A stretch of 64,000 bases of DNA from Terramyces sp. JEL0728 (lineage: Eukaryota; Chytridiomycota; Chytridiomycetes; Rhizophydiales; Terramycetaceae): the NCBI GenBank assembly GCA_027603945.1, contig JADIIU010000014.1:1-64000 (forward strand), read 5' to 3'. Position numbers and translations under genes: made by a program. Numbering within the stretch: position 1 is the stretch's first letter; each line of letters opens with the position of its first letter. A model generated the notes under the pieces. The model was not told the origin of the DNA and searched no databases. It saw nothing but the letters and a program-made list of their open reading frames with translations. Shown one piece after another: positions 1-64,000 of this stretch.

Positions 1-1383
1 GTTTCCTTTTCGTGTAACTCAGTGGTTTGATTTTCTGCTTCTATCTGGGATATTTGAACAATTTCAGCAGGAATGTCTTCAACTACCGCTTCAATTACTT
101 GTACATCAATTTCTTGCAATTTGACAGCTTCACTATCTTCTGCTTCAATTCGAACAGAATCAGCTTGCTCTTGCGACAACTGATCCAAAACTCCTACTTT
201 TTTGTTTTCGGTGACTAATTGAACATCTGCAGTTTCCATTGCTACTATTTCTCTATTTTCCACATCTTCTGTATTTTTAACAGAAACATCGACAATTACA
301 TCGGTGGTTTCGACAATTTCTTCGACTACTACTTCAGTTGTTTCTTCGACTACTACTTCAGTTGTTTCTTCGACTACTACTTCAGTTGTTTCTTCGACTA
401 CTACTTCTGTGGTTTCAACTGTATCGTCAGTAGTTTCGACTATCTCTTCCACAATAACTTTAGTAATTTCAACTGTTTCTTCACTATCCAGAACAATATC
501 CTTAGGTTGTTCTGCTACTACTTTACTTTCCAGGACTTGGGTTTCAACAATTTCCTGGTTTGATTCAACACCTTGATTTTCCTCTCCAACTTGTTCAACT
601 GTTGCTTTTTCTACTTCTATGGATGTATTTACATTGGTATCCTCAATATGAGATTCTGTGCTAACTTGGTCTGCAGGATAATCAACAAGTACATATTCCT
701 CGTCCTTTGGCAATGCTCCAATTAAAATAGTGACAATTGCCAATGCTGCCGCGCTAAGGACATCTTGGTTGTATGGAACATCTACAGGAGGGACGTGAAC
801 AAATAATGCTGATCCATCCTTGACAACGTAAAGGGAGGTTGCGTAGATAAATTCGCAAAGGAATCTACATTAATTCAAAACTACCTTCCGGCACCAATGG
901 AAGATTGAATGTGTTCATATCCTTGTGCTTTCATTTGAGTAAGGACGTGATCAACGTTTAATAAAGTTGAGTTTCTAAGTATGGCATCGTCGGCGCGAAT
1001 GCACATCCCGCCTTCTGGTAATTCGCCACTAAATTAATCACCAATTACTTTGCATCTTTTTCTCCATACATGTTGTTATGAGCGTTTTTTTCCAATCTAA
1101 TCGCTCCTGGACGACCAACTCCGAAATGAATTACCAATGAAGGGTTCAATTCGGCGATCAATGTTGGTACGGTGGTGCTAACATGCTTGTAACTAACTGG
1201 GACCAAAACTTTTTTAATTTCAAACCTTGAATTAACGTTGGATTACCCATCAATTGAGTTGGGAAGGGTTTTGACAGCTTCCCATGACGGATTGATATCT
1301 ACGGTACCGAATGGCTGCTGTTAGTAGAAGCTTACTCCAAATCCGGTAACTAAGACAGTTTTATTTTTAATGTTGTTTGACAT
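1..1383 (-). CDS. Pyroglutamyl-peptidase I with long acidic repeat tail (3' end cut by window)
   Basis: Removes N-terminal pyroglutamate from peptides (peptidase family C15). After removal of four introns (1315-1335, 1226-1246, 1029-1048, 865-884; 21, 21, 20, 20 nt) the protein starts MSNNIKNKTVLVTGFGPFG, the C15 N-terminal signature. All three catalytic residues are visible: Glu in RLEKNAHN, Cys in GRFLCEFIYATSL and His in FVHVPP. The peptidase domain ends near position 690. The frame then stays open to the window edge for about 230 more residues rich in Glu, Val and Thr, including four EVVVEETT-type repeats. Usual family members stop at about 200-220 residues, so the tail is unusual. Stop codon not seen. 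The domain call is firm; the role of the tail is unknown. Confidence 0.9.
321..416 (-). repeat. Four tandem 24-bp units encoding EVVVEETT
   Basis: Four head-to-tail 24-bp copies at 321-344, 345-368, 369-392 and 393-416. The first three are identical and the fourth has drifted. They lie in frame inside the acidic tail of the pyroglutamyl-peptidase gene, each coding for eight residues, so copy-number change would not break the frame. There are no spacers, so this is not a CRISPR array. Confidence 0.93.
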
Positions 1384-1782
1384 TTGTTGTAACTTTTTTT
1401 CGCTTTTCGATTCCCAGAACTCTGTCTGTGGCGCTTGGACTGCCGTTCACAACGCCAAAAATGAAATTGGGCACAAATGGATTTGACTTAACATGCTTTA
1501 AAGCCTTTATATGCCTCCAGGCTATTGCGGAATTGGAATTTGCGTTGGCGGGTTTGCTGTGTTAATGATCTTGAGTCTGGTGTACAGAATGATATGGTTT
1601 GTACTACCAGATGACTTGGAATGTGATTCCGATCAATTCTTTCGAAATTCGATATGGAACATGCGATGACAGTCTGAGTGTGATCTGACCTCATTGATGT
1701 GGTTGTTGCCAACTTTGTACAAAATCATTTCAGATCAAGTATAACGAAATTCTACATTCGTGCGCAAGTTCGAGCCAATAAT
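1384..1782. other. Intergenic region with no supported gene
   Basis: About 400 bp between the pyroglutamyl-peptidase start and the nucleotide-sugar transporter stop. Short frames exist on both strands, up to about 74 codons, but none resembles a known family or combines with the local intron type into something longer. It probably holds the peptidase promoter and the transporter 3' UTR. Confidence 0.5.
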
Positions 1783-2904
1783 CTACTTTTTATTATTGGA
1801 TACTGAAGCAATCGTATAGAGTGTTGTACCTCCAAATACGAGACAAGCACCTAGTGCCCCCATGTCAGAAAATGCATTCTTGAATATAAATATAGAGATA
1901 AATAGCGAAACGCATTTTCTAACCGTCAAGACCAAATTGACTGTAACTGACGATGCCATTGAACTCAGCTTTGAAACTCCAGTAATGCATACATCTATCA
2001 TTAATAAAATGTACATTGAGTGATGATATTCAGCCCCAAGTAGAAATACATTTCAGGGATAAAGATTTTGTGCAAAAAGTCTCCAAATACCAACTCCAGG
2101 AACTGTTTTGATATCGGCCCTGATAATACCCGCTCCATTAAATATCCAACAGTTACCAAATTGGAATTATTGTACTCGTTGATTTGGTGGATGATGTCTT
2201 TATAGAAAATCAAAAAGAATGGAAGAGAGAGCGTATGGATATAGAACACTCCTTCTTTCCAGTGCTTTCCATACTTGCCATAAGTAATTTGCTGATATTG
2301 GCCCATAAAACAAGACAAAATTAAAGCGATTGTCAATAATGCAATTCCAAAGATGAAATCCGACATGGATCCCTCCTGCTTTTTAGTTGTTGATGAACTA
2401 ATGGTTGACAATACAACCCCAATGGAAACAATAACCACTCCGCATATCTGCGGTAAAGAAAACCTAGTTAGAAATCCAATACTTTTGGTGAAAGAACAAG
2501 AATCCAACTGCCATACTGACTATAAGTGAAGCGGAACGAAAGATAATATGAAGCGGAACTGAAATATTGAACCCAAGTGCATAATTGTTCATTACAGATA
2601 CTGACCAAAATAATATTACAATCACCAACCAATTCAGCAGTGGAACCTGTCTTGCTTTTAATCTATAGTTTTTAAAATCTATTTGTGAGGTTGCAGCTTC
2701 AAGTGCAACGAATACGAATTGGGAAAATGTGATTAATTGAGTTGATTTGGGGAGTTCTTTCACAAGTACTTCCAGTGCAAACACATTCGAGCAACAGCCG
2801 CCAAATATTAATGCAAATACAATCATCCATTCCTTGAGAAATAACAGTGGAATTGCTTGTGCAATTTCTTTTGGTATTTTGTGCGGGTCGATTTTCCTTG
2901 CCAT
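1783..2904 (-). CDS. UAA-family nucleotide-sugar transporter (SLC35B4/Yea4-like)
   Basis: Multi-spanning ER/Golgi antiporter, probably for UDP-GlcNAc and/or UDP-xylose. Two introns (2464-2482, 19 nt; 1995-2014, 20 nt) join three exons into about 360 residues with some eight to ten hydrophobic segments. The stretch NNYALGFNISVPLHIIFRSA matches the SLC35B4/Yea4 core, and the C-terminal half continues with FSLPQICGVVIVSIGV and a last helix before a lysine-rich end, SNNKK. A KK near the C-terminus would fit ER retention. Family is secure; the sugar specificity is inferred only. Confidence 0.87.
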
Positions 2905-3064
2905 TTGTCTAAACTTTTTTCTCCAAAATTATTCCTCTTGAAAGCGGCTGCAATAAGGTTGAATTCCTAATTTGAAGGGACATTTACCATCGTTTTGAGG
3001 GGATTACTCGAATCCTTGTTCAAACTTGGAAAATCTTAGTTTCAAACTGAAATCGGCACATGGT

Positions 3065-5467: not shown

Positions 5468-5483
5468 GAAAAACTACTCATAA

Positions 5484-6014
5484 ATGGCATCAAAGCTATC
5501 CATCAACATTCCAATGGATGCGCAAGACATTTGATACCGATAACAGCCATTGAATGCTCTGTTCCTTACAGTATCTCAATTTTACGGACCTGTCCAGCAG
5601 AGATACATGCCAATACCAACGACTACAGAAATAGTTGACGAAAGCCAGTGGGTCCAATTAGGGATAATGATGGTATCCAACAAACAATCATTGGCGTCCT
5701 GGTGGCGTTCTCACACGGTGATTCTTGTCCAAACTAATACCAATGCTGTTATACTTTATAAGAGAATTCGGATTCAGAGCAGAAGATGTCTACTCCAAGA
5801 AGGACTGGATGAATGCCAACCAGGAAATTATTATTGAAAAATTCCAGAATCTAAAAGTAGAACCAAAATCACAACCGGAAATATTGATTGAGCAAATGAA
5901 TACCTTGAAGATTAGCAAACCAAAAAAGAAAAAGAGGTATTCGCCATACAGGCCGGTTAGAACTAGTAATCCCTATAGTGAAAACGACTGGGCGATTGCT
6001 GGCCAAGAATTGTA
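5484..6014 (+). CDS. Unresolved reading frame, possibly frameshifted or non-canonically spliced
   Basis: The last part (from about 5722) is open and protein-like: KLIPMLLYFIREFGFRAEDV, then a Lys-rich region and NPYSENDWAIAGQEL before the stop. Upstream, another frame carries QFYGPVQQRYMPIPTTTEIV and the third carries GVLVAFSHGDSCP, which abuts the last part with a one-base shift. No AG occurs between about 5660 and 5755, so a normal GT..AG intron cannot join them. It could be a gene with an unusual intron, a decayed gene, or a sequence error. No family recognised; the start at 5484 is a guess. Confidence 0.33.
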
Positions 6015-6240
6015 ATATACTATTTTCACTATCGCATTTCAATTTACTTTTAGTTGTACATAACCGACTAGGCGTCCTGCTTCCACGGATATCCAATTCG
6101 CAAGCAGCAGGATTACCAAACCAAACCAAATCTGTGTTTTACCAAACCAAAACCAAATCTGTGTTTAATATCACATCTAGGTTTCTAAAGGCAATGCTTG
6201 GCTCGTGTAACCTACACTACAAGTTTTTTCTTTTAAAGAA

Positions 6241-7502: not shown

Positions 7503-7556
7503 TTAATAAAATCTCATAATCAATAGCTGGCTTGTGAGTTAGGTCTTGTTTTCAAA

Positions 7557-12046: not shown

Positions 12047-13445
12047 ATGTCTGATTTGTCTCATCGTCTGCAAAACACTCATATAACGTATCTGAATAGC
12101 ATTTAACTTAGCGACGAAGGCGAAGAGTGGAAGAAAAACTTACATTTACCAAAACGTGATATCAGACCACAAACTTCAGACGTTACAGCTACAAAAGGAA
12201 ACGAGTTTGAAGATTATTTCCTCAAAAGAGATTTGCTAATGGGTATTTTTGAAGCTGGATTTGAAAAACCATCTCCAATTCAGGAGGAGGCTATTCCAAT
12301 GGCCCTGGCAAACAGGGATATTCTTGCTAGAGCCAAGAATGGTACCGGTAAAACTGCAGCATTTGTTATTCCAGTTCTTGAAAAAGTTTCCCCAGAAAAG
12401 AATCATATTCAAGGTGTTTAGTTGTTTAACAGAAGCATTGATTCTTGTTCCCACTCGCGAACTTGCACTGCAAACATCTCAGGTCTGTAAAACGTTAGGT
12501 GTGTATCTCTAATAGCAGGGAAGCATTTGAAACTTCAAATTATGGTAACCACTGGAGGTACTAGTCTCAAGGATGACATCTTAAGATTGAATCAACCAGG
12601 TAAGTGCAAACTAAAAAGTTCATATCATAGTTGCAACCCCTGGCAGAATTTTAGATTTAGCTGGAAAGAATGTTGCGGATCTATCAAAATGTACAACGTT
12701 TGTTTTGGATGAAGCGGACAAGCTATTATCACCAGAATTCCAGCCAATTGTCGAGCAATTAATTGGATATTGCGCACCACAGCGCCAAATTCTCTTGTTC
12801 TCCGCAACTTTTCCAATCATGGTGAAAGCATTCAAGGACAAGTTTTTATCCAAGGCACATGAAATTAATTTGATGGATGAACTTACCCTACGAGGTGTTA
12901 CTCAGTTTTATGCTTTTGTAGAAGAGCGACAAAAAGTCCATTGTTTGAATACACTATTCTCCAAAGTACGGTTGTATTTTACACTAGCTTCAAATCAACC
13001 AATCCATTATTTTCTGCAACTCAACCAGTCGTGTAGAACTTTTAGCCCGAAAGATTACCGAACTAGGATATTCCTGCTATTATATCCACGCTAGAATGAT
13101 GCAGAGTCATCGTAATAGAGTGTTCCACGATTTCAGAAGCGGGAAGACTCGCCACTTGGTTTGCTCAGGTTTTTCGTTTGTAACGTAGATTTGCTCACCA
13201 GAGGTATTGATATTCAAGCTGTAAATGTTGTAATCAATTTCGATTTCCCAAAGAATGCAGAAACTTATTTGCACCGTATTGGCAGATCCGGCAGATTCGG
13301 ACATTTAGGTCTGGCTATCAATCTATTGACTGTAGAAGACAAGATGAACTTGTATAAAATTGAACAAGAATTGGGCACCCAAATCGCACCTATTCCTGCC
13401 GTTATCGACAAATCTCTTTATGTTGCACCTGATGCAAATTACTAA
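12047..13445 (+). CDS. DHH1: DEAD-box RNA helicase DHH1/DDX6
   Basis: P-body helicase that represses translation and activates mRNA decapping. Six introns (12088-12111, 12414-12432, 12499-12518, 12600-12618, 12966-12987, 13169-13188; 19-24 nt) give 424 residues. DDX6-specific signatures are [20 protein letters not shown] and the Q motif PSPIQEE. Helicase motifs: AKNGTGKT (I), PTRELALQ (Ia), TPGRILDL (Ib), DEAD (II), SATFP (III), [24 protein letters not shown] (V) and [18 protein letters not shown] (VI), ending [17 protein letters not shown]. The start lies upstream of the first intron ([14 protein letters not shown]). The stop overlaps an AATAAA, and the next gene converges 85 bp away. Confidence 0.97.
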
Positions 13446-15352: not shown

Positions 15353-16845
<1,493 letters not shown>

Positions 16846-26543: not shown

Positions 26544-28881
26544 ATGCTTGAAAAGTTTGATACACTTGACGTTGCATTGCTATCGTCAGTATTTGTTGCT
26601 ACCTTTGGGTATTTGTGGTATTCAGCCCAAGATTCAAAGCCGGCTCTTAAACCTGTAACCACAGCAACCCCAGTCAAGTAAGTGCTTCTTTACACCAGGA
26701 TAAAGTACGCTTCAGCCAAGGACTCATTGATTGAAAAATTGGAATCTCTAGGGCATGAACGTATGGTTGTATTGTTTTTTGGTTCCCAAACCGGAACTGC
26801 AGAAGATTTAGCGACAAGAACAATGAAAACCATCTCAAATAAGCTCCATATTCCAGGAGTTGTCATCGACACTGACGAATACAACATGGAAGAATTGGCA
26901 GAGCTCCACGACCTTGGAAAGGATTGGTTGTATGGATTCTTTATGGCCACGTAATAATTTGGTAACATAGATACGGAGAAGGAGAGCCTACAGATAACAG
27001 CGCAGATTTTTATTCCTGGATCATGGATGGAAATGGTGTTGGGTCTGATAAAGGTGATCAAGATGACCATATGACAGATGAACAAATCTGTGGTGGGCTA
27101 AATTACTTTGTTTTTGGACTTGGTAACAAAACTTATGAGCATTTCAATGCCATCGCCAAAAGATTAGATGCCAGATTAGCCAAGCTTGGAGCAACCAGAG
27201 TCGGTCAACGAGGCGAAGGAGATGACGACGATTCAATGGAAGGGGATTATTTAAAATGGGAACCGCAAATTTTGAACGCAATCAGTGAATACTTTGGAGT
27301 CGCCATTGATACAACTTCTCAGAAATCCAAACCCCATGTCCCCCTATTCCAAATCGAATATGTCGACACTGATCCCAAATTCAAGGGAGAGCTTTCTTCT
27401 GGGCAGCCTAGATCATGGAGTAATGACATCGAAACCAATGCCAAATCCAGCTATGACATCAAACATCCATATTACAGTAAATTTGCGATTAGTGAACCAT
27501 TATTTAAAAACGCCAGCGATTCCTTCAAATTCCCTGGCCACAAAGTCAGTTTCAATCATTCCAAAGTCTCAATCAAGGATGACGATATTACTATTCCAAG
27601 ACAATGCTACCACATTGAATTTGATTTAGGTAACAGCGGAATCAAGTATAAAACTGGAGATCATATTGGTGTCTATGGAAACAACTCTCTCGAAAGCGTT
27701 GAATATCTTGCAAAAGGATTGAAAATTGATAGCTTGGACAAGGTGATTAAGCTCGTTCCAAATCCTGATAATCCACTCTCGGCCAGTGCCAAACCCAACC
27801 TGCCAATGCCTTGCACTCTTAGAACCGCTTTAACCAATTATTTGGATATAAATGCTATTACTAAGCAACATCAACTGGAAGTAATTCGTTATTCACCATA
27901 GATTTTCGCCAAATATGCAAAAGACGCAGCCGAAAAGAAACTGCTGGAGGCATTATCCGACAATAGAGACAAGTACGTTGTTGAAGTTGAAACCCAGCAA
28001 AAGACCTTGGCCGACATTTTGCACGAGTTCCCATCAATTGCGGTTTGTATTTTTTAATAGTAGTTGCCCCTCAATGTTGCACTGGGCGGTATATTAAGGC
28101 CTATAGCTATTCGCTACTATTCTATCTCTTCTTCTTCTAAAGAATCCCCTAAGGTGGTCAGTGTTACTGCTGTTGTTGTTCGTTATGTGCTTCCTCATCA
28201 GCTGTCGAACAACGGAAAGAGAGTTGTCGTCAAGGAAGGCTTGGTTACTTCCTTCTTGGAAAGAATCCACGATCATAAAGCGGGCAAAATCGAATCCCAT
28301 GCTATTCCAGCTTCCGAACATATCCCAAAGCTGCACTATCCCGTGTATATTCGCTCCTCCAACTTCCGCTTGCCAAAAAATCTTGAAACCCCGGTTGTTA
28401 TGGTCGGTCCTGGAACTGGTGTTGCCCCTTTCCGTGGGTTTATCCGTGAGAGATTCTTGCATGCTAAGGAAGGTGAAAAAGTAGGTCCTACTTGGCTATT
28501 CTATGGCTGTAGAAATGCCGACTCGGTAATTTACGCTTATTTTAGGATTATTTGTACAAGGAAGAATTCAAAGAAATGTTGGACGAAGCCAAAGATCTTG
28601 ATATTGACTTGAAAATCATTACTGCATTTTCAAGAGACACTGACAAAAAAGTCTACGTTCAACATTGTGTCAAGGAACATGCCGAGAATATTTGGAACTT
28701 TTTGGAAACTCAAAATGGAAACTTTTACATCTGTGGTGATGCAAAGAACATGGCCCATGATGTGAACAAGGAGCTGGAAAATATTGCTGTTAATGTTGGA
28801 TCTATGGACGAAGAAGGCTCAAAGAATTGGATAAAGAAGCTTCGTAGCGATGGAAGGTATTTGGAAGATGTCTGGAGTTAA
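26544..28881 (+). CDS. NADPH-cytochrome P450 reductase
   Basis: ER-anchored diflavin reductase that passes electrons from NADPH to P450s, squalene epoxidase and others. Five introns (26678-26698, 26951-26970, 27881-27901, 28043-28063, 28526-28545) give about 744 residues. N-terminal anchor VALLSSVFVATFGYLWYSA; FMN site FFGSQTGTAEDLA and ATYGEGEPTDNSADFYSW (ATYG formed by splicing); FAD site RYYSISSSS and GPGTGVAPFRGFIRER; NADPH site LFYGCRNADSDYLYKEE; C-terminal YLEDVWS. The first intron falls between membrane anchor and FMN domain. AATAAA overlaps the stop (28880-28885). A P450 reductase argues against a fully reduced, microsporidian-style metabolism. Confidence 0.97.
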
Positions 28882-31787: not shown

Positions 31788-34209
31788 ATGCTTAAACAAA
31801 GGTAATGGAAACATAACCGACAGTTTCAAAGTCGAGTCAACGATTGAGTCGATATATACAGGAGGAAAGTTCGACTTGGTAGAGGATTATTTATTGACTA
31901 CTGCTGGTGATGCGGTAAATATTTTAGATTTAAACGACTCGTCAAAACGAGAAATTAAGGATGATTCACTTGTCACTTCTTTTGCCACTACCAAAGATAG
32001 AATTATTATTGCATTCCAAAATCAGTTGCTAAAAACCTACGATTTCGACTTGCAAGAATTGAAAAGTTATAAAGTTCATGAAGCTCCAGTGCTGGTTATG
32101 GATACTAAATCAACACTAGTAGCTACTGGATCCGCAGATTCAACAGTCAAGTGTTGGGATATCGAAAAAGGACACTGCACGCATAATTTCAAAGGACATG
32201 GTGGGATAATTTCAGCTTTAAAATTCCACCAGTCCAAATTAATCTTGGCCAGTGGATCTGATGATTGTAAAGTTAGAGTGTGGGATTTGAAAATGAAATC
32301 GTAATTCTGTATTTATTGTAGCTGTATTGCAGTATTGGACTCTCACGTTTCTGTAATTAGAGGATTATCATTTTCCGATGAATATTTATTTAGCGGAAGC
32401 AGAGACAAAGTGTTTGCCAAGTGGGATTTGAGCACTTTTGAATCCGTTTTGACAAAGCCTACGTTTGAATCAATCGAAGCACTTGAAGTCGTACAATTTA
32501 ACGGTGCATTGGCAGTTTGCACTGCTGGCGAATCTGGCGTAATCAAACTGTGGGACTACGAAACCGGAGAGCTACTTCAAGAACAACATAAAGACAAAAA
32601 CAACTCACATGAAGTTGCTTATCTCTTGCATGCACCTGGCCGCAGCGATTTCCAAATAATTACTGCGACCAGCGATCAAAATATACATTTGTTTGATATC
32701 TCTGGACCTAGAATTAAAAGGGTTCGACAAATTGCCGGGTATAATGAAGAAATCTTGGATATGGTCCTTACAGGAAACGATAGCCACCTGGCAGTGATTA
32801 CAAACACCGAACAGGTAGTCTCGAGTTTATTTAGATTCGATTATACGATGTGGACACTAAAAATTGTAACATTGTATATGGCCATTCTGATATCGTGCTT
32901 GCTATTGCCAGCTCTTTTGACGGGAAGCTGCTTGTTACAGGGTCTAAAGATAATTCTGCTAAACTGTGGGAGATTGATTTGGAATCTGAAACCCAGCTTG
33001 AAAATACAGCGTCATTTGTGGGACATACCGGACCTGTTACGGCAATTGCAATGTCCAAGCAATCCGCCAAGTTCCTGATAACTGGAAGTGAGGATCGCAC
33101 TGTGAAATTCTGGCCGTTGGCAAATCTTGCAGATATAAAGGGTAAGATTTTCTAATTTAGCGAAATTTACTTTCCAAGCTCACGATAAAGACATCCAATC
33201 GATTGATGTGGCTCCAAACGATTCTATCTTTGTTACTGCTGGATTGGACAAATTAGCCAAGGTAAGCAATGGTTTACTTTAGATGTGGTCAGTTGAAGAT
33301 GGTTCTTTGTTGGGTGTATTCAAGGGACACAAGAGAGGAATTTGGAATGTAAAGTTTTCACCGGTTGATCAAGTTATCGCAACTTGTTCTACCGACAAAA
33401 CCTTGAAAGTTTGGAATATCAGAGACTATAGTTGTATCCGAACTTTTGAAGGACATTTGAATACTGTTTTGAACTTTTCATTTGTGTCTACAGGATTGCA
33501 ATTGTTGTCGACTGGGTCGGATGGATTGATGAAACTCTGGAATGTCAAGGACGGCGAGTGTGCCGGAACATTTGACAATCATGAGGATAGAGTAAGAATT
33601 GTTATTAACATAGATTTGGGCGGTAGCTGTTAACAAATCTGAATCAACAGTGTTCACTGGCTCTTCAGATTCTACCATTTCACTTTGGAGAGATACTACT
33701 GTGGAGGAGCAAGAAGAGAAAAACAAAGATGAAGACGCAAGATTAACCAAAGAACAAGACTTGAACTTGTTTTTGAAGCGCAAGGATTTCAAAAATGCTT
33801 TAATTTTAGCGCTTCAGTTGGATCAACCATTCAAAATACTTGGTATCTTAAAAAATGTGCAAAGCGAAAGAGTGGATGAAGATAGCGTTTTGGGATCAGC
33901 TTCGGTCGATCAATTCTTTTCATCCTTATCAAGCGAAAATGTAAAATGACTTGACTTTAGTTGGAAAAGATTTTGAACTACCTCAAAGATTGGAACACAC
34001 ACTCCAAGCACTCGCGAACTGCACAATTGGTCCTTGGGCTGCTAATCAAGAATATCGATCCACAGCAGCTTTTGGAAATCCCTAATTCAGAGCAAATTTT
34101 GGAGAGCTTGTTGGCGTATTCTGAACGTCATTTAACGCATGCTACACAACTGGTTAAGGAAAATTACTTGCTAGACTATACACTTGAGAGAATGGATGCT
34201 CTTATTTAA
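31788..34209 (+). CDS. UTP13: U3 snoRNP/SSU processome protein UTP13 (TBL3)
   Basis: UtpB subunit for 18S rRNA processing in the nucleolus. Seven introns (31802-31823, 32301-32321, 32815-32834, 33142-33160, 33262-33282, 33592-33613, 33941-33960) give 758 residues: two WD40 propellers (for example VKCWDIEKGHC, KLWDYETGELL, VKFWPLANL, LKVWNIRDYSC, MKLWNVKDGEC) followed by the Utp13 C-terminal helical domain (LNLFLKRKDFKNALILALQL, then LLDYTLERMDAL). Start: MLKQ|SFKVESTIESIYTGGK fits the TBL3 N-terminus. An alternative unspliced start at 31720 gives a poly-Phe leader and is unlikely. Confidence 0.93.
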
Positions 34210-36442: not shown

Positions 36443-38176
36443 TTAGGTTTTTCCTTCAAGCTCACTTAATTTTTTCAACAGGGTTTCATTCTCTTTTTGC
36501 TTTTCTTCTAATTGTGTAACTGCTTTGATAAATCCAACTTCCAAATCCTGCAACCCAATCAATAATTCCGTCAAGTTTGAATCAGTATTGTTGGCTGATT
36601 TCTCTAATACGTATGATTTAAGTTTTGTTATAACCCCCGGTGTGTTTTGGCCTGGTGGAGGCGAAAGATGGGCAATTTTCTTCCACGCTACAGACAGTTT
36701 TTCTTTTTGCTGGTTTTGGAACAATTCACTAAGGGAATTGTTGGAGCTGCGTTCAACAACTGATGAGCTGGTTGAAAGATGGCTTGGCTTTGGTACAAAC
36801 TCTGGCTTTAGAGGATCGTCGCCAGACTTTGGTGGCGGTGGATAGAACATTGATTTATGTAAAGATTTACGGTTTTCGTTTACTTCATGGTCGGTACCAG
36901 AATTGGTTTTTCGAAGGGTTCCGACGCCAATCTGGACAATTTTTTGTGGTTTGTTCAACATAATTTGTGGGCGGTATTCGCCTCCAATAGACGATGAAAG
37001 ACTGAGAAGCATATGCTGAACAATTGGATCTACTTCGGTATTATCTACAGAATATCTTGGCGGAGGTGGAACTAGATTAAAAACTGCCTTACTGACTTGG
37101 TCTGCTTTAAATTTGGTGATGATTTCGCACACTTCATTGCACTGGGCTTGCATTGCAACTTCCAACGGTTTTTTCCCGCTTTTGTTTGTTCGTTCAGTAT
37201 CTGCTCCTCTCATCAACAGCCACTTTGTGCTTTCTTTTGAGTTTCTGCTGGCAGCAACATGAAGAGGTGTATTTCCACCTACATTTGTAGAGTGTATATT
37301 CGCACCGAAATCAGTCAAGAGAGCGACAATGCAATCAAAGTTGTTTAGTGCCGCCTTTGTTAAAACATGCTTACCTGATGGAGTGGTCCTCGTCCATGTT
37401 CATCAAAGTTTTCAGTGTTTGCCTTTGCAAGCAGTAATCTTAAAACACACTCGGAATTACCGGCTGTTGCAGCGTAGTAGATTGGAGTAAGCCCCAAAGC
37501 GTCCTGCACGTCCACCCAGGCACCAAATTGGATCAACGTCTGCGTTACGTAAATCTAACCTTTAAAGCCAAGCATTTGTTGTGCATTGCAGCAAGATGTA
37601 ACGGTGTTTTCCAATTGTCCTTGTCTCCCTGAGTCAATGTAAATTACCAATCTGTAATCCAAGAATGCCCCATTGTCCATTAGCCACATAATCATCTGTT
37701 GGTCGTTATTCATTGCTGCAGATGCAATTGGGGTTTCTGTGTTGATAAAAATTTACCTTGGTCCAGTAAGAAATTGAAATCGAAATTCTTTGTGGTTTTT
37801 TCTTTAACCTTATCTAATCCACCCTTTTGAATATCGTCCAACATCTTCCTTTGTTTCTTTGGATCGGCAGTATCCGCGCCAATTTTGGTTTTCAACTGGA
37901 AATCAATTTGACACTAAATTAACTGAAAATTACGGTTTGATCCAAATGGTATGAGCCAGCTGTATTTCTCTCATCTAAATATTTGCCCTGCTTTCCATCC
38001 TTTCCGTGCAGTAGCAAACCATAATTTAATACATCCTTGACATCTGAACACACTTTTTCTTCCAGCTGTTTCTTTACCGTAGCAATTAAATCGTTGCTGT
38101 TTATTCGAATAGCTTTTTGTAGCTTTAAGGATGGAATCGTTATCCTCAATACTACCGTTTCAGTCGCTGCTGCCAT
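36443..38176 (-). CDS. SHANK-like protein: SPN-type N-terminus plus ankyrin repeats
   Basis: Five introns (37914-37933, 37737-37756, 37629-37647, 37540-37559, 37355-37374) give 544 residues. The start VVLRITIPSLKLQKAIRI, then LNYGLLLHGKDGKQGKYLDE and QIDFQLKTKIG, follows the ubiquitin-like SPN domain of SHANK (VVRVGIPDLQ, LNYGLF, GKFLDEERLL). About five or six ankyrin repeats come next (WKTPLHLAAMHN, LGLTPIYYAATAGNSE, GRGPLHQA|ALNNFD, GNTPLHVAASRNSKESTKWL). No PDZ or SH3. The C-terminal 250 residues are Pro-rich and end in a coiled coil. Scaffold role is inferred from architecture only. AATAAA overlaps the stop (36439-36444). Confidence 0.78.
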
Positions 38177-50747: not shown

Positions 50748-50774
50748 AACAGTATCTTTATTTACTAAAACAGC

Positions 50775-53546: not shown

Positions 53547-56500
53547 CTAATGCTCACGTTTTGATTCCTTCTTTGGTGATAACGGCTCAGTTGAACGAGA
53601 TCTCTTTTTAGATTCATTATCGTCTTTGGGGTTTCCATCCCCTGATCGACTTATTACGTTATTATAATTCTGAGTAAGTTGCGATTACCTTTAGTTTACT
53701 GGAGCTTTCTTCTTTCTTGGCCGCTCCTTGAACTCTTTCAAACAAGGCCTTATACTTCTTGGAAGAGATCACATTGGGCCAAAAGTAAGATGCTGTTTTC
53801 CATAAATGCTTTTCCATCGTCATTCTTTCTCTATCAGTTGGGATTTCCGCGAGGTAATTCAAAATGAAACTGCCAACAACAACTAGATTATCCTTGATGT
53901 ATAGCGCTATTTTCTTTTTGTCAATGTTTTCAGGGGTTTTCAACAACGCTTTCATTTGCTTTTTGACGGGATGCAAAATCTTCTTGCAGTTGGCTACCTC
54001 GGAATCATCCAGCGAATCATAATCAGACTCTTTTTCAGGCAGTTTGTCAACCTTGACCTTTTCTTCCTTTCTCCTGCTTTCACTTTCTCTGCGCGACCGT
54101 GATTGTTTAACCTTTTCCAAACGCTCTTTAGAAAATTTACCCTCCTCCTCTTCCCGCAAAGTTTTTAAAAGATAGTCTGCCCGGCGTTGCAAGTGAATAG
54201 CTCCAGGCAAGTGCTTGTCATTTGTACCCAAGAAAAACTTTTTGGCAAATGGAAGTGTTGCGTCCTCTTGCATCTGCTGCCATGCACCATATCCGTATTT
54301 GTAAATTCCAACTAAAAGCATCGCATCATCTTTTGTTCCCCAAGATGCCGTCCAATTAACCACTGGCTTCACTGACCAAGGTATTCTAAAAGAAGTAAGG
54401 TTTTGATTCTCCATTCTTACACATAAAAACTGTAAATCGGCGCTTCGTAGCAGTAGTTGCCCCGCATTAATGGCTGATACGGCTTCATAATTAGCGGTGA
54501 TTACTTTTGGCTTGCCTCCACTTTTCGTTTCTGGCTTTTGGTTCTTGACTGCTTCCTTACAAGCCTGTAGCACCCCCTCAATGAAACTTTCCACCACTTC
54601 AGGATCTTTATGTTCAACATCGGAATCTTTTGCAATATCTTCATTTCTCTTCTTCCAATCTCCATATTTAAACAAACTTCGGACAATGCTCCGCTGTTCT
54701 TTATCCGACAAGATATTGCTATCTCCTTTCTTCTTTGGTTGCTTGGCCGGCTTTCTCTTTCGTTTGGCATTTTCACTGGTAAAATCGGCGCCGGTGTAGT
54801 TGACTGGAGCTTTTCGTTTTCTGGTATCTGGCAAAAACTCGTCTGGAATCTCTTCATTAGGGTCTGCTAGCTCTTGTCGTAAATCTTCTGGTATAATATC
54901 GTCCCAGCTCATTTGCGCCACGTCGGAAACATTAAACTGGGTTAAGAATTCAGCAGAGCCGAGGGCGGTTCCAGACTGTTCTACTCCATGATGAACTTCA
55001 GCTCTAGAAAGAATATCGTCAAGATTCATTTCTTCCAATTTCGCGCTATCTTTTTCTCCTGGATTTTCCGATTCGTTCTTGAATAAATTTTGTGCACCAA
55101 ACTTTAAAATAGTCTGCAATTCTTCACTGCTGATCTTGTCTAGATTGGCATTGGCCTGTCTTGCTCCTTTCTGCATTATTCCGGTGCCAGAGGTATCCAT
55201 TGTGCTAATAATTGAGTATTCAAGAACCATTTTTCTTTTTGCCCTATCAATAATGTCCTCTTCAATAGAGTCTTTTGAAATAAACCTATACACGTTAACC
55301 GCTTTCTTTTGCCCTTCCATTAAAAACTAATTACCAATGCGGTGAGCTCTAGCAATAGCTTGTAGATCTACTATTAAAACCAAGTACCATTTTGCGGATT
55401 CCAATCAGAGTCAAACAAGATCACTGTATCTGCAGTAGCCAGGTTCAATCCCAGTCCTCCGGCTCTAGTCGAGAGTAAGAAGGCAAAGTCGCTAGAGTTT
55501 GGAGCGTTAAAATGCTCCATGCTTCTTTTTCTGGCCTCTGAACTTGTAGACCCATCTAGACGTTGAATTTGGTATCCTCGATAGTTCATATAGTCAGTTA
55601 AAATATCCAACATCCTGACCATTTGCGAAAAAATTAAAATTCGGTGCCCATCTTCTTTTAACCTCGTCAATAGTTTGTCCAGTAATACCATTTTGCCAGA
55701 ATTTACAATTATGCCTTTCAATTGATCCTGTCTGGAATGGCCCGCCGACTCTTCAGCTCCATTAAACAGATAAGGATGATTGCTAGCCTTTTTCAATTCC
55801 ATTGCAATATTTTGCAAACTTAGATTTTGATTTTTGCCCCCTTTACTAAGCAGATCAAAATTTTTAGTGAATACAGCTTTGTAATATTCTAATTGCATCG
55901 GAGAGAGTTCAACCCTTAAAATACGTTCAGTTTTTGAAGGAAGAGATTTTTCCACGTCCTTTTTAAGCCTGCGAAGCATCAGATCCTCCAATTTTTTTTG
56001 GAGATCCTTAATCTTTTCTTCCTGGTCTTCATCCCCAACATTAATTTCAAAATTTTCAAACTCTTGGAACTTGTCGGGCATCAAAAATTGAATTAGCGCG
56101 ACAAGTTCTTTGACAGTATTTTGAAGCGGTGTACCGGTTATCAACAGTCGATTGGCAGTCGAAAAATCTTTAAGGGCTTCATGAAGCTGAGACTCTGAGT
56201 TTTTTAGCCTGTGAGCTTCGTCGACAGCCAAATACGCCCATTTTACATTTCCTATTGCTTCTTTATCTTTCAATACCAATTCAAACGTCGTCAATAGCAC
56301 ATTAAATCTAAGTTTTGTGTCTCCAACTTGATGCGGAAGGTAAAATTCGTATTCTCTGATGATCTGTCTAGCAGCACTATCACCTTGGTAGCAAATAATA
56401 TTCATGTCGGGAGCCCACTGTTTAAATTCTTTCTGCCATGCTGCAATAGTTGAGAGAGGCACCACAACCAGAAAAGGCCCATTAATATTTTGCTGGTGAA

Positions 56501-57901
56501 AAAGGTATGACAAAAACCCAATTGTTTGTACGGTTTTGCCTGAGATTAAAAACTAAACACCTAAACCCATTTCATCTGCCAATATGCCATTCTGATTTTT
56601 ATGCCATAAGTGCGCCATCCAATTCACACCAAGTAATTGGTAATCTCTAAGTTCTCCGCCAACATTTAAATATTCTGGCTGCTTTTGGAAAGGTTTGTAC
56701 TCTGGCCGATTTTTCAAGGAAGAGTTTTTGTGAGGCAGTCTTAAACTGTTATTTCTATCCAAAAATGAATCAATTTCCACCTGATCTTCCGGATTTAAGC
56801 TGTCAATGGGTTCCCAAGTTGCTTCTGAATACTGCAATCCTGTCCATTTGCAAAGGTACTCAGTACCTCCCTCCTCATTTCCACAATAACCAGGCTCCAC
56901 CTCTCTGGTCGCCACAACTCTTTCTACGATCTTGTAGTCTTCCACGTGTGATCTTTCGATTTCAATCAAATCATCTAGGGTAGCCAGTTCAAACTCGGTA
57001 GTATATGGGTCCTTTCTTATCAAGTCTTCATTTTTTAGTTTCCTTATATAGTTTTCAAGCTTTTTGTAGCCTTTGTATGGCTTTAACTCGTTTTTCCGAT
57101 GCCATGTGTCTTTCCTGTGGGAGGATCCTTTCCACTTGACCAAATATTCAGGATCGCCATCTCAAGATTAGATTCGATCTACCTTCGTTTGTCCTTTTAT
57201 CGAATACCCCTTCAATCACCTTTCCTTCCACAGCTAAATAAGATACCGTTTACCTGCATCGTAATCTAATGTAGCTGCCTCTTTGGCTTTCTTTTTTTTT
57301 TTTTCTTCTTCAGATTCACTCATACTTCCAAGCTCATCATCGAGATAATTTTCGTTATCATAATATTTGACTGTGCTCCCTCTCGATGAAAAGCGAATAT
57401 ACTCCTGTTGCAGCCCAATTTTTGAAACCTTCTTTTTGTTCCTTGACTTTTTTCTGGAAGCTGATTCACCAAAGTCTGAATCGCTGGCCGCTTCACTGTT
57501 ATACTCGTCGTCCTCTTCTGAGTTGCTATCATCTTAAATTATATAATAAATTACAATTTCTTTTTTCTTTCCTGGATGGAATTGAGAAAGAGTCCTCTGA
57601 ACCGCTCATATTTGACATATCTTCATTGTATTCAGTGTCATCCTAATGGTTAGACCCGTTCAGATAAAACGGCATAAAGCGCACATTCACTTACTCTTTC
57701 CGAAATTGAATTTTTTGGCCGTCCAGATCGTCGTAATCCGTACAATTCTGGATTCATCTTTGCTTCATCCAATGGATCCAACTGGATTTTTGAAATTCTT
57801 TTCGTTCTAGGTAAAGAGATCTCTTCTGATTCATCGGAAGCAGATTGATAATTGTCATTACTAACGTCTGATTCAAAAATATTGTCTGATTCTATTTCCA
57901 T
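53547..57901 (-). CDS. CHD1: Chromatin remodeller CHD1
   Basis: Nucleosome-spacing ATPase bound to transcribed chromatin. Eight introns (57643-57670, 57533-57554, 57234-57253, 57161-57182, 56540-56560, 55368-55387, 55314-55334, 53670-53688) give about 1393 residues. Order: acidic N-terminus with LYGLRRSGR; chromodomain 1 ([12 protein letters not shown]); chromodomain 2 ([18 protein letters not shown]); SNF2 with DEMGLGKT (spliced), [30 protein letters not shown] and [17 protein letters not shown] (spliced); SANT-SLIDE DNA-binding region ([20 protein letters not shown]); and the CHCT helical domain ([20 protein letters not shown] to [11 protein letters not shown]). The first intron could instead be 52 nt (57643-57694), also in frame. 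The last intron adds a basic Ser-rich tail; without it the stop is at 53662. Confidence 0.95.
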
Positions 57902-58094
57902 CTCTACTGTTAATTACCGCAAAGAGATTCTGCATCCGTCACTTCCAAAATAAGAGGGGAGGGATGTTCTGTCTTTATTACCTTATTCTGGTACAATTGG
58001 TGTTGGTAAAATTAATCCAGTTAGCAATTGTTGTATGGATGAAGAAAAACAATTGGAAATGAAGGAAAAAAAATGTGTATTTTATACGTTCATG

Positions 58095-59351: not shown

Positions 59352-59401
59352 GGAATATTTTTTTCTGAAATTTCAAAAATGTATATTATAAAACCACACG
59401 T

Positions 59402-62170
59402 TTACTGGCGAAAATAATCTTCTTGAAATCCTTTATATTTCTGTTTGACCGGGAAAGCGTATCTTCCATTGCTTTCCAGCCATTTCTTATGGGCAAGAAT
59501 TATTGGCATGGAAAATAATGTATCAGCTTTGGGGTTATTTTTAGATGACCTCGGGTCATAGTCTTCTGAAAATCGGATATTAAGTCCTCTAGTTTGTATA
59601 TATTGTTCGGGCTTGAAAACTGATAAATTCGAAGCATATTTTCCTTCATTGGAAGCAGCAGGCTTGTTCCACCTAGCTGGCCTGTACGTGGAAGGTTTTG
59701 GTTGGTTAGTTGTGTTCCGTGCTCCAGCATTCCTTATCACCACACCAGACAGAGTTTCATTGAATCTTACGCCATGACTTGCTAGGGGTTTTCTTAAGGT
59801 TGGACGCAAATCTTCCATTGATTGATCCGGATTGAAATTAGGATAAACTTCACCATATTCCTGACCCGAAGCCAATGATCTCAAAAAGATTGGTTTGGTT
59901 CCTCTTTTTGATTGCAAATCTAGGCAGCTTAGAATGTATTTACCTTTAATAATTTTGATATGTTCTGACGGAATAAAGTGTAAAATGCGACCTTGCTGTG
60001 CTTGATATTCTCGCGATTTCTGTTGACTCCTGTCAAATTTCATTTCATCATCAGATGATTCATCTTGATAATTACTGTTAAATTGTTGCCACCAGGTACC
60101 AGTTTCGAAATCGTTTTCTAAACCTATTTTAAATATATATTTACGGTTGTGCACCACATTTGAAGCAGGTTCGTATTTCCGAAATTCTATATTTATGATT
60201 GGATCGTCTCATTAACAAATACTTACCATCTGTATTAAGTAATTTATATCCAAGTTTAATCATATACGATGTGATCGACGCATTTTGATTGATTAATGTA
60301 TATAGAATATTCGCTTGGTTCTTTGATGATAAGGCAGCCAGCAGATCTTTAGGTGCAAAGCGGCTGTTCGCAATCAATCTTAAAATTTGCTGAGGAAAGG
60401 CATTGAACTAAAAGTAAATACTTGTCAGCTTACCTTTTTAATATTTGACTCCAATTGTTTCATATTAATATCTTCGTACTGGCTGGCGATATCCATTAAA
60501 GTGCTTGGCTGAACAGTACCATGTGCAATCAACTTCTTTAGTTCAGATAAAGTAATTCCTTCTATAATTATGACCCATTTACGTTTTTTCCCTTTTAGTT
60601 TCCCAAACTGATCTTGAATGTTGCCAGCTGGCGACATTTGTTCAATTATTTTTCTAATTTCTGAATTTTGCCTAAAATTAAAATCCTGATTTACCAATAA
60701 TTTGGCAACTCTACTTCTTTAAAGAGCGGTTTGAGGGTGAAGATTAGAATTCTATTTGAACAAGAAAAATAAATCCTATCGTTGAAATCTACAACAATTT
60801 GAGAAACAGCAGATGGTAAATTAATCTGAAACAAAGGTTCCCCTCGTCTGCTCGACCAAATTCTACAGGTTGCGTCAACTGAGCCGGTTATTAGAATGCT
60901 GTGTAAATATATTGTCTTACTCTGAGTTTTGTGAAAATGCAGCACTTAAAACAGGACTCTCGTGCAAGAAAGTAAAACGCAAGTCTGCATGATAACCTCC
61001 GAATACAGGAATTTCTCCAACTTTCAGCGAGCTAAAATCTTTCAATAATATCTGTTCATCATACGATTCATCCAGCACATCAATACATCCGTTGAGTCTT
61101 TGGCTGATAACTTCCGCATCCTGTGGTCAGTTCAACCTAATATACCTTGAGTTCGGATTTTACTTGCACAATTTGCTTTTGATATGATGTGATTCTCCAC
61201 AATTTGCATGTATTATCTGCAGAACAAGTAGCTAGATGCTGTCGATCCAACGAGAGTTTAACAAACAAGATTGCACCACAATGAAACTTTTCCTTGTCAA
61301 CACTGGCATTTGCATCTGGTGTTTCGTTATTGGCCCAGGCTGGGTCTGGCGCAATATTATCTGATATTTAAATCGCTAATACCCATCTTCATTTCCACTA
61401 ATGTATTCCAAACAGTTACATGGCCGTCGTTTCTCCCACAAAGTACAAGATCGGGGTTGTCGAAGTTAAAATCAAAACTTCTCACAGCGGAAGGATGTCT
61501 CATACAAGAGTTTACTTGCTGGCCAGTTTTCCAGTCCCATACAATTACTTTTCCGTCATCAGAGGATGATATTACTCTCTCACCATCCCCCGAAAACTCT
61601 ACTTGATGGATAGCACCATTATGTCCTTCCACTACCCTAGATTTTAACAGCCACCTACTTTAAAGCTTTCCAAAGTTTTAAATCCCAGATGATAATCCGT
61701 TTATCTTCTCCTGCAGTTGCCAAGTATCTCCCGTTAATATCAATTGAGCAATTTCTAATTTCACCTTTGTGAACACATCCCCCAAATTTCCCCATCTATA
61801 TCAAATTAAAATCACTTCTGCCTTTAATATACTAGTTTCTGAATTTAAAGCGAATATCAATTTTCCACAGCAAATAACTAAAATATTTTCCTTTGCATTG
61901 ATGTCAAAACAATTGATGTTTAAGTCAAATCGAATACTTTTTCGAAGTGTAGTGACAACGATATGTCGATTTCCAACTTTTATATTCTTGCCTCCAAGTA
62001 TTGCGTCCATCACTATTTTTAGTTTTGGAGGTACTTCTATACCCAGGTTCAGCTTCAGCTTCGAGCATTTTTCTATTTCTCGTTTGAGGATCCATAGCGG
62101 TATCTCTAACTTTCGCAGAAGGAATGCGTCCATTATTTGTCAGTATGGAAAATCCGTTATAAGAGGGCAT
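59402..62170 (-). CDS. Large WD40-repeat protein, orthologue not recognised
   Basis: Nine introns (62013-62034, 61796-61815, 61637-61658, 61361-61382, 61121-61145, 60899-60920, 60672-60694, 60408-60433, 60208-60226; 19-26 nt, longer than the local norm) give 855 residues in one frame. N-terminus MPSYNGFSILTNNGRIPSAK, then DAILGGKNIKVGNRHIVVTT. WD blades include YLATAGEDKRIIIWDLKLWK, VISSSDDGKVIVWDWKTG, LCGRNDGHVTVWN, LATCSADNTCKLWRI and LITGSVDATCRIWSS. Helices follow (SELKKLIAHGTVQPSTLMDI, LLAALSSKNQANILYTLINQ), then an unfamiliar C-terminal region of about 280 residues (TGTWWQQFN, SLASGQEYGEVYPNFNP). It could be a ciliary or trafficking WD protein; I cannot place it. Confidence 0.72.
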
Positions 62171-63015
62171 TGATAAAGTGAAAAAGTACGCGTCTCTTTT
62201 GCTCAAAAACACCGTTCATTAAGAGATGAAAATTTGTCGTTCGTATTCCCAAATTGATAAATTTCAATAACTAAAAGTATCAAACTAACTAGACAACATT
62301 TAACTAATTGAAACTCACCTTAACTCTCCTGTGATTCCTGATGGTATTCTTAAAGTTACAAGACTAAACCTCGATTCTCCCATTCACGTTTGAAGTACTT
62401 TGATAAATCAAATCGAAGTAAGGGCCAAAGATGGAAACGGCTTCCCTATGGCTGCAGTACTAGTATTTATAAAATATAAACCAAGAATAGAATTGAACTC
62501 ATACTCCATATTGTGTTTATCTTTAAACATCGAACAGTAGAAGCTGCACTTTCAAAACTCCTGCAAAACATAAAGTCATCATGCTTACTATTATGAATAA
62601 ACCATTACTTTTAATAGAATGAACTCGGATATATTACTGCGAATAACGGGTCGAACTTGATCTTCGAACGAAATACTTACTGGCAATTGCATCTTTTGAA
62701 TATACTCATCCAAAGGATGCATTTGCTAGTCTTTAACATTATCTGTAAGTAGGAAAGAAATAAAAAGTTAATAGTTCATTTCCAAACTGAAGACTTGCCA
62801 GTGTACAACAACCATTAACGTGTAGAATGTACAGAATACATTGGATTAGAGTATGTTCAATAGTAGCTATTATTCTTGCGCCGTTAAGTCATCTACTCCA
62901 TATAGATTATTCAGTGCCGAGGGATTCACAATAATCTGATTTATGGTAAAGGATCTGACGACATCCAAGCTTTGAACAATGAAGATTTCTGTTGATATTT
63001 TTTCAAAATTTTGAA
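62171..63015. other. Divergent region with one doubtful small minus-strand gene
   Basis: About 850 bp, the longest gap in the window. A 20-codon upstream frame ahead of the WD40 gene overlaps its start, and an 11-codon frame starting at 62981 precedes the PIG-X-like gene. On the minus strand an ATG at 62722 opens MHPLDEYIQKMQLP and continues open to about 62615. A later frame, SFESAASTVRCLKINTIWSM ending near 62467, could follow, but joining them needs an intron of about 48 nt, far from the local size. No family matched. Confidence 0.35.
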
Positions 63016-64000
63016 ATGGAATCAAAACTCAAACCCCAATTGCAATATCTCGAAATACTGCTGGAGCAAAATATACCCGTCTTTGAGTTCATCTATATTA
63101 CGTCTTCAAATGTGGATTCAAAAATATTATGGCCAATATCTGGATTACATATATCAAGCGATTCAGCTTCTTTGACCGATAGCCAGCTGGAATTATTACA
63201 AAAATACTTTAAATTCACTGATAATGTTGAAAATATCTTATAGTAGGTCGAATTTAGTTCAATTGGAGAAATATTTTATGATTTAATCAAAGGTGCTCTT
63301 CCCAGTAACTCCTTGTTGGGAAATTTACAAGCGAAATCACTAGAAAACTTGAACTTCAAATTTCAGGTTGTTGAAACAGAAAATGATCTGAAGCCAAAGT
63401 TAGAGATAACTATAATATCAGCCTCAATATTGGAGCAGAAGGACACGCAATCAAAGGATATTTTGTCTATAGGAGGAAGTGGATACCATCCAAAATTCAA
63501 TTTCAAAGTTGAAGAAGATTCACAAATATTGATCTATGTTCCTCGTGATTACTTTGTTGATCCTTACGAAATTGAAAAGATAATGTTTGATAGCAGTCTG
63601 GACTTTACTCTCTCTGGAAATGTAGACTTGGAGGTTCCACGTCCGTCCAATGATGCTCGACCGCATATACTGGACCTGGCTGTTCTGGGTTCCAAGCAAT
63701 TCCAAATCCCATTCCACATGAGATACCAGGAACCATCTTCCAGCCATGACCGCATAAATGTAGAAATTATATCGCCCATAGTATACAATATCACCGCAGG
63801 TATTTTAAGCTAAGACAGATCCGTGTGAAGGCAATTTAGTGCCAAGAGCAATTAAAAATCTCATTCATCAAAACGATTTCGGGTGTCTTACATCCGAATT
63901 TATCGGGAAACAGGGCTATATTGCTGTCCCGGTAGGAAATAGAGGAATGGAAAGGAAGGTAGCGCAGTATACTTTCATAAATGCAGTGCTTGGATCACTA
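63016..64000 (+). CDS. PIG-X/Pbn1-like GPI mannosyltransferase I subunit (3' end cut by window)
   Basis: ER membrane protein that stabilises the first GPI mannosyltransferase (PIG-M). Introns 63226-63246, 63800-63818 and probably 63967-63986. After a weakly conserved lumenal part come SGNVDLEVPRPSND, QFQIPFHMRYQEPSSSHDRI and NVEIISPIVY, resembling the PIG-X block (P-x-HLRYHxPS ... PPxxF). The last visible part, GYIAVPVGNRGMERKVA, would lead into the C-terminal membrane helix. Together with PIG-S at 43.6 kb this indicates an active GPI pathway. Third intron placement is uncertain, since 63959-63986 (28 nt) also fits. Confidence 0.62.

Follow-up and report, generated by a model that had tools for sequence, protein, structure and literature searches.

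What is the smallest intron that a cell can still excise? The question is raised by 64,000 nucleotides (nt) of DNA from Terramyces sp. JEL0728 (contig JADIIU010000014.1, positions 1 to 64,000; hereafter the window), in which a first-pass annotation had described a genome-wide class of introns with a modal length of 20 nt. We find that most introns detected in the sampled genome are about 20 nt long, which places them among the shortest known in any organism. Very probably, they are ordinary U2-type GT–AG introns that have shrunk genome-wide to about the smallest size that the Terramyces spliceosome accepts. That the segments are spliced at all we infer from the sequence.

Our sample consisted of 263,652 bases in 21 regions, namely the window and 20 loci of about 10 kilobases (kb) each. 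It makes up 1.8% of an assembly of 15,016,339 bases in 231 contigs and, as the additional loci were picked for RRM domains, it is gene-rich and non-random. The NCBI lineage of Terramyces sp. JEL0728 is Chytridiomycota, Rhizophydiales, Terramycetaceae, which makes it a chytrid fungus and an opisthokont, and the window is gene-dense chytrid DNA. The best public relatives of its RUVBL1 gene (15353–16845) are those of Boothiomyces sp. JEL0866 (98%), B. macroporosus (97%) and Terramyces sp. JEL0728 itself (97%). A rhizarian host was considered, as mikrocytids and nucleomorphs have such introns, and was dropped because the protein matches are to chytrids. The first-pass annotation had placed the introns in an opisthokont with an ordinary gene set, and rightly so: the source is a chytrid, and the class recurs across the sampled genome.

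A narrow class of ultrashort introns

Three approaches that make no use of homology converge on the same lengths. The first counts the spacings between GTA and a branch motif followed by (T/C/A)AG, and compares them with random sequence of equal dinucleotide statistics. In the window, spacings of 19, 20, 21 and 22 nt occurred 21, 33, 12 and 14 times, compared with means of 3.3, 3.4, 4.3 and 2.4 in 10 random sequences (80 versus about 13 in total). With a broader motif list and all 21 regions, the counts were 89, 139, 66 and 45 versus 16.3, 14.3, 13.3 and 17.7 expected (339 versus about 62 in total). The remaining lengths between 12 and 100 nt showed a slight excess (maximum 28 versus 14–18 expected) and no comparable peak.

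The second approach is a gene finder that uses only GT, AG and codon statistics and gives equal weight to every intron length from 12 to 120 nt. Over the 263,652 bases, it called 183 introns, of which 90 are 19–22 nt long, with a mode of 20 nt. When GT and AG were replaced by each of five false dinucleotide pairs, the same finder placed 10 of 166, 10 of 153, 11 of 155, 14 of 167 and 4 of 131 segments in this range. The ultrashort class and its mode, as first annotated, thus stand. These controls also bear on the possibility that assembly or sequencing errors imitate short coding insertions, to which we assign next to no probability: nothing was found in its favour, errors would not share a GT, a branch motif, an AG and a 20 nt mode, the false pairs give no 19–22 nt peak, and both motif and length controls oppose it.

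A variant of the finder, with a motif model learned from calls of 18–23 nt and again no length preference, placed 217 of 273 introns at 19–22 nt and 8 at 23–26 nt, with 48 scattered from 16 to 118 nt. The lower edge of the class is sharp: the codon-only finder called 2 introns of 18 nt and 21 of 19 nt, and the motif-model finder called 0 and 42, respectively. Each kb of coding sequence carries 1.36 introns of 19–22 nt on average, and rough scaling from the 217 introns in 264 kb gives about 12,000 in the genome. A narrow, unimodal class below about 25 nt is thus observed in the sample; its genome-wide extent is an extrapolation from 264 kb of 15.0 megabases (Mb).

For the window itself, 28 of the 34 gene models obtained with the motif model and a length bonus contain introns; these number 112, and 106 are 19–22 nt long. 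Without the bonus, the motif model gave 92 introns in 23 of 27 gene models, 71 of them at 19–22 nt. Neither version reproduced the first-pass figure of some 140 introns in over 30 genes, plausible though it is.

The third approach asks whether the segments behave as sequence that is removed before translation. When pattern-defined segments of 19–22 nt were cut out, the two 90-nt flanks were jointly open in one frame in 218 of 289 cases; when the segments were retained, they were open in 35 of 289. Removal of segments with the same pattern but of control lengths left open flanks in 15 of 48 (13–17 nt), 10 of 39 (24–27 nt), 12 of 52 (30–33 nt), 15 of 58 (40–43 nt) and 12 of 53 (60–63 nt). Among 117 codons that are split by introns, none was a stop after splicing, where about 5 would be expected from random codons (3/64); the finder does not enforce this check. 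The in-frame stop present in all 44 of the 21-mers is no evidence, because the finder reads through 21-mers that lack stops.

It is also conceivable that the segments are skipped in some other way, by ribosomal bypassing, programmed frameshifting or DNA elimination. The lengths of 173 of the 217 motif-model introns are not multiples of three, and frameshifting could also give such lengths. However, the segments carry a GT, a branch motif matching U2 and an AG at fixed distances, and the genome encodes spliceosomal factors (U2AF65, SF1, SF3B1, SF3B6 and SF3B4). We regard these alternatives as highly improbable.

Homology provides support that is independent of the finders. Protein-guided spliced alignment, restricted to GT–AG introns of 8–200 nt and given no motif weights, was applied to RUVBL1, DHH1 and a WD40 gene of 841 residues. 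For CHD1, UTP13/TBL3 and P450 reductase, junctions were judged by eye in alignments to solved proteins, and were counted as clean if no gap lay within three residues. These six genes of the window, all conserved, contain 40 introns, and the junctions of 35 are clean: 30 introns of 19–22 nt and 5 of 23–26 nt (Table 1). The protein-guided alignments contributed 22 introns of 19–26 nt, and the solved proteins gave clean junctions for 4 of the 6 CHD1 introns, 5 of the 6 UTP13/TBL3 introns and 4 of the 5 P450 reductase introns. The longest homology-supported intron is 26 nt, shorter than the 28 nt that the first-pass annotation had considered necessary.

The six RUVBL1 introns fell at identical sites with all four relatives tried, and the spliced protein aligned to a solved human-type RUVBL1 chain over 449 residues with zero gaps. 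The DHH1 introns were obtained in full with three of four relatives, whereas alignment to Globomyces sp. JEL0801 gave 13 and 52 nt at two sites. Both the RUVBL1 and the DHH1 alignments to Boothiomyces were gap-free. A 31 nt DHH1 intron in the ab initio model was corrected to 19 nt by homology. In the WD40 gene, alignment to Globomyces pollinis-pini yielded ten introns with no gap up to 8 residues away; nine recurred at the same sites with Batrachochytrium dendrobatidis, and the first was replaced by a 52 nt call elsewhere. Weaker support comes from Pfam matches that run unbroken across intron-bearing models of PSS, Ric8 and PIG-S.

If the introns are real, could a sizeable class of 30–120 nt have been missed or scattered, leaving the ultrashort introns merely the dominant class? 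Without a length preference, the motif model placed 42 of 273 calls at 32–118 nt, and the public RUVBL1 model uses 31 and 56 nt at two sites. The 32–118 nt calls, however, form no peak, and false dinucleotide pairs yield similar scattered totals (131–167 versus 183). In the three genes aligned with 8–200 nt allowed, no intron longer than 26 nt was needed, bar three calls: in the WD40 gene, 41 nt at the weak C end and, against B. dendrobatidis, 52 nt at the start, where the alignment is weak; and, in DHH1, 52 nt against Globomyces sp. JEL0801, whose public RUVBL1 model is damaged. The public 31 and 56 nt choices remove residues that are conserved in relatives. We consider such a class unlikely, though it is the strongest of the alternatives.

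Table 1. Window introns supported by homology. "Alignment" denotes protein-guided spliced alignment, with the number of relatives giving the intron; "by eye" denotes an ungapped junction against the solved chain named.
Gene	Intron	Position	Strand	Length (nt)	Support and remarks
RUVBL1	1	15394..15415	+	22	alignment, 4/4
RUVBL1	2	15516..15535	+	20	alignment, 4/4
RUVBL1	3	15756..15777	+	22	alignment, 4/4; public model 31 nt
RUVBL1	4	16020..16039	+	20	alignment, 4/4; public model 56 nt
RUVBL1	5	16346..16366	+	21	alignment, 4/4
RUVBL1	6	16669..16688	+	20	alignment, 4/4
DHH1	1	12088..12111	+	24	alignment, 4/4
DHH1	2	12414..12435	+	22	alignment, 4/4
DHH1	3	12499..12518	+	20	alignment, 4/4
DHH1	4	12600..12618	+	19	alignment, 3/4; ab initio model wrong
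DHH1	5	12966..12987	+	22	alignment, 3/4
DHH1	6	13169..13188	+	20	alignment, 4/4
WD40 gene	1	62013..62034	-	22	alignment, 1/2
WD40 gene	2	61796..61815	-	20	alignment, 2/2
WD40 gene	3	61637..61658	-	22	alignment, 2/2
WD40 gene	4	61361..61382	-	22	alignment, 2/2
WD40 gene	5	61121..61145	-	25	alignment, 2/2
WD40 gene	6	60899..60920	-	22	alignment, 2/2
WD40 gene	7	60672..60694	-	23	alignment, 2/2
WD40 gene	8	60408..60433	-	26	alignment, 2/2; longest supported
WD40 gene	9	60208..60226	-	19	alignment, 2/2
WD40 gene	10	59920..59943	-	24	alignment, 2/2
CHD1		57161..57182	-	22	by eye, Chd1
CHD1		56540..56560	-	21	by eye, Chd1; inside a run of 13 protein letters (not shown)
CHD1		55368..55387	-	20	by eye, Chd1
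CHD1		55314..55334	-	21	by eye, Chd1; 33 nt beyond preceding intron
UTP13/TBL3		32301..32321	+	21	by eye, TBL3
UTP13/TBL3		32815..32834	+	20	by eye, TBL3
UTP13/TBL3		33262..33282	+	21	by eye, TBL3
UTP13/TBL3		33592..33613	+	22	by eye, TBL3
UTP13/TBL3		33941..33960	+	20	by eye, TBL3
P450 reductase		26951..26970	+	20	by eye, reductase; between MA and TYGEG
P450 reductase		27881..27901	+	21	by eye, reductase
P450 reductase		28043..28063	+	21	by eye, reductase
P450 reductase		28526..28545	+	20	by eye, reductase

Some further features of the sample and the assembly deserve mention. The two last-listed CHD1 introns flank an exon of 33 nt (55335–55367, minus strand). Elsewhere on the minus strand of the window, a predicted protein at 7557–9149 matches Integrator subunit 2 (PF14750, 103.7 bits) and belongs to a chytrid gene; one predicted protein at 36443–38176 combines a talin-type FERM_f0 domain with ankyrin repeats; and the model at 41–1383 joins a pyroglutamyl peptidase C15 domain to a long tail of TTEVVVEE repeats, which could be a fusion or a model error. 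Two pairs of contigs (C37/C56 and C38/C125) gave matches with identical scores, as if two haplotypes had been assembled apart, and these pairs could reveal allelic differences in intron presence or length.

Intron anatomy and the splicing machinery

The introns have the features of the U2 type: GT–AG ends, restoration of the reading frame on removal, and a branch motif complementary to the GUAGUA of U2 small nuclear RNA (snRNA). A motif search that was given no motif, run on 90 introns of 19–22 nt picked without the motif model, recovered a branch site of the YTRAY type; 41 of the 45 20-mers have its A at +14 or +15. In the set of 217, which is biased by the motif model, the A lies at 14 in 37 of 42 19-mers, at 14 or 15 in 98 of 105 20-mers, at 15 in 31 of 44 21-mers and at 15 or 16 in 22 of 26 22-mers. 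In most introns, the branch-point A thus lies at +14 to +16, with 5–7 nt left up to the 3′ end, and adding these two spans generally gives the length class (19 = 14+5; 20 = 14+6 or 15+5; 21 = 15+6; 22 = 16+6 or 15+7).

Branch sites resemble TTAAT, TTAAC, CTAAC or CTAAT. The site tolerates variation, since only 70 of the 112 window introns have a strict YTRAY close to the 3′ end. The majority sequence of the 5′ splice site is AAG/GTAATT (the slash marks the exon border). The +5 G is present in 20% of the biased set of 217; in the unbiased set, its share in the length classes of 19, 20, 21 and 22 nt is 19, 24, 25 and 17%, respectively. T is commoner at this position. The commonest start is GTAATT (GUAAUU in the RNA; 14 of 90). 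In the same 90 introns, the last triplet is TAG in 62, CAG in 19, AAG in 7 and GAG in 2, and A+T content is 71% in the set of 217.

Much of the layout drawn in the first-pass annotation is recognizable here. Of the 112 window introns, 102 start with GTA and nearly all end in TAG, CAG or AAG (70, 26 and 15, with 1 GAG), but the branch site is looser than the CTAAC, TTAAT or TTGAT proposed. The gap of 3–6 nt envisaged between branch motif and terminal triplet is too wide: the motif mostly ends 4–6 nt ahead of the exon with the final AG counted, which leaves about 1–3 nt before the TAG, CAG or AAG.

How might so short an intron be recognized? A normal major spliceosome would remove these introns through intron definition. 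Given their sizes, the U1 footprint on the 5′ splice site and the U2 branch helix would lie only a few letters apart when the branch A is at +14, and U1 and U2 would therefore most likely make their contacts in sequence and not together. The 3′ AG would be chosen 3–5 letters past the branch A, where there is no room for a polypyrimidine tract; with the AG so close to the branch A, such a tract would not be needed. The protein contacts of U2AF65 may be the reason for its retention. The sharp edge at 19 nt would then represent a physical minimum that deletions could not pass.

The factors recovered from the sample look ordinary. U2 snRNA was found (140 bits, with the canonical GUAGUA), as were U2AF65 (TIGR01642, 334 bits versus a cut-off of 310), SF1 (helix-hairpin, KH and zinc-knuckle matches), the N-terminal part of SF3B1, SF3B6 and SF3B4. 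A U1A/U2B″-type protein is encoded, with U1A as its best solved match, and a second, at locus L027, was recognized by eye only. Loss of most early recognition factors, the kind of reduction seen in mikrocytids and microsporidia, is thus not a feature of Terramyces. The first-pass annotation had expected the spliceosome to show adaptations; since the recognition factors are present and ordinary-looking, adaptation is not shown. Of the U2AF, SF1 and U1 proteins that it had proposed to survey, U2AF65, SF1 and the U1A/U2B″-type protein were recovered but not the U1-70K N-terminal domain, a weak negative.

Several observations nevertheless weigh against the interpretation that ordinary introns have shrunk to a limit set by an ordinary spliceosome. 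Among the 273 motif-model calls, 56 lie outside 19–22 nt; we take most of the 48 scattered ones to be false, and rare longer introns may exist. The 41 nt call in the WD40 gene comes from one alignment at a weakly conserved end, and two introns in CHD1, one in UTP13 and one in P450 reductase lack clean support, the alignment being gapped or absent there. Strict YTRAY is absent near the 3′ end in 42 of 112 window introns. The SF1 model holds an unchecked predicted intron of 15 nt, which, if real, breaks the 19 nt floor. As to the machinery, the control genomes for the RNA and domain searches were bacteria and archaea, so that the following negatives, which had no eukaryotic positive control, are weak. 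U1 snRNA was not found with its Rfam family (41 of 233 candidates scored) or with a pattern of our own. U6 was not recognized: two family matches reached 27 bits versus a cut-off of 44, with no catalytic AGC read, and of two patterns, one gave 0 matches and the other 4 versus 3 in the reversed control, with no U6 among them. U6 must nonetheless be present in the genome. The U1-70K N-terminal domain had no Pfam candidates, and a U1-70K motif, written as a regular expression, was not found in the sampled loci, which cover only part of 74 RRM places.

Could Terramyces splice 20 nt introns without a functional U1 small nuclear ribonucleoprotein, with U6 and U5 reading the 5′ splice site directly? 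If so, the space that U1 would need becomes free. Neither U1 snRNA nor the U1-70K N-terminal domain was found, whereas U2 snRNA reached 140 bits, and the +5 G of the 5′ splice site is largely lost. In mikrocytids, which have similar introns, the snRNAs identified were only U2, U4 and U6, according to the part of the source consulted (PMC10245619). However, these tools also failed to detect U6, which must be present, and the genome encodes a U1A/U2B″-type protein. We view splicing without U1 as improbable, somewhat more so than a missed class of longer introns.

Public RUVBL1 models in chytrids

The public Terramyces RUVBL1 protein maps onto the window residue for residue through GT–AG introns. 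Its model takes four of six introns at 20–22 nt. At the remaining two, an upstream exonic GT is used, with the result that 3 and 12 conserved residues are lost to introns of 31 and 56 nt, respectively.

Are similar faults present in related species? Among 41 named chytrid RUVBL1 models, chosen from the best 53 matches listed, internal deletions of at least 3 residues occur in 4: Terramyces, B. macroporosus, Kappamyces and Globomyces sp. JEL0801. Globomyces sp. JEL0801 has a foreign stretch that starts at a Terramyces intron position; in the other three, a missing or foreign stretch either spans such positions or ends at them. This suggests, from protein sequence, that Boothiomyces, Kappamyces and Globomyces share ultrashort introns with Terramyces, and the faults in B. 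macroporosus, Kappamyces and Globomyces sp. JEL0801 are probably annotation errors that such introns caused. The pattern is not a clean one: insertions are present near intron 3 in Chytridium lagenaria and at other places in Powellomyces and Geranomyces, and the models of Globomyces pollinis-pini and Boothiomyces sp. JEL0866 are free of faults. Proteins from such models may pass false deletions into comparative studies.

Relation to other ultrashort introns

In the parts of the literature that we consulted, the genomes with ultrashort introns are those of ciliates, nucleomorphs and mikrocytids (PMC9505925, PMC10245619). The first-pass annotation had named ciliates and nucleomorphs, both correctly, but had omitted the mikrocytids with their introns of 16–17 nt (PMC10245619, in part).

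One of the closest parallels is the heterotrich ciliate Stentor coeruleus, as portrayed in the available part of PMC9505925. Its introns are 15–16 nt long; the branch A lies at 10–11, followed by a tail of 5 nt. Like Terramyces, Stentor has uniform ultrashort GT–AG introns and a largely complete spliceosome, and its most abundant intron begins with GUAAUU, also the commonest start in Terramyces. The tail is about equal in both, whereas the loop is about four letters longer in Terramyces, where the A lies at 14–16. The branch region of Stentor has no strong consensus, in contrast to the clear YTRAY-like site of Terramyces, and the two lineages, with introns of 15–16 and 19–22 nt, are unrelated. 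In Stentor, Cwc25 and ISY1 differ (PMC9505925).

Chlorarachniophyte nucleomorph introns, at 18–21 nt in the part of PMC10245619 consulted, have nearly the same length range as those of Terramyces. However, a nucleomorph is the relict nucleus of an endosymbiont with a reduced genome, whereas Terramyces introns reside in a fungal nuclear genome of 15 Mb. From the same part of that paper, the mikrocytids (Rhizaria) have 224 predicted introns and 17–19 identified spliceosomal proteins. They resemble Terramyces in having many introns in a narrow ultrashort class, but their spliceosome is reduced, whereas Terramyces has U2AF65, SF1, SF3b and, by rough extrapolation, about 12,000 introns. In Trichomonas vaginalis, the available part of PMC12316389 gives an intron of 23 nt among 63 active introns, others being up to 196 nt. 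As in Terramyces, there are very short introns with a branch motif near the 3′ end.

Short introns also occur on the fungal branch of the opisthokonts. Microsporidia, relatives of fungi, have introns down to about 23 nt, but differ from Terramyces in having few introns and a reduced spliceosome. Their introns are described as few and relatively short in the part of PMC10245619 consulted, and the available part of PMC3629993 gave no figure for their lengths. No paper on ultrashort introns in chytrids or fungi was among the open-licence literature matches listed. Term look-up found introns unmentioned in PMC3207900, PMC11797018 and PMC9926174, and the parts of PMC13391722, PMC8476143, PMC11649378 and PMC6572847 consulted contained no ultrashort chytrid introns. 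Terramyces is apparently a new, independent addition to these systems.

What does the finding mean? It brings the question of the minimal intron into the opisthokonts, where the spliceosome structures of human and yeast apply directly. The organism is a free-living chytrid whose JEL number denotes a strain kept in a culture collection, and it has sequenced relatives such as Batrachochytrium and Spizellomyces. A lower bound that can be measured follows from the two spans of 14–16 and 5–7 nt, and Terramyces is a promising natural system in which to learn how far an intron can shrink and still be excised by a cell.

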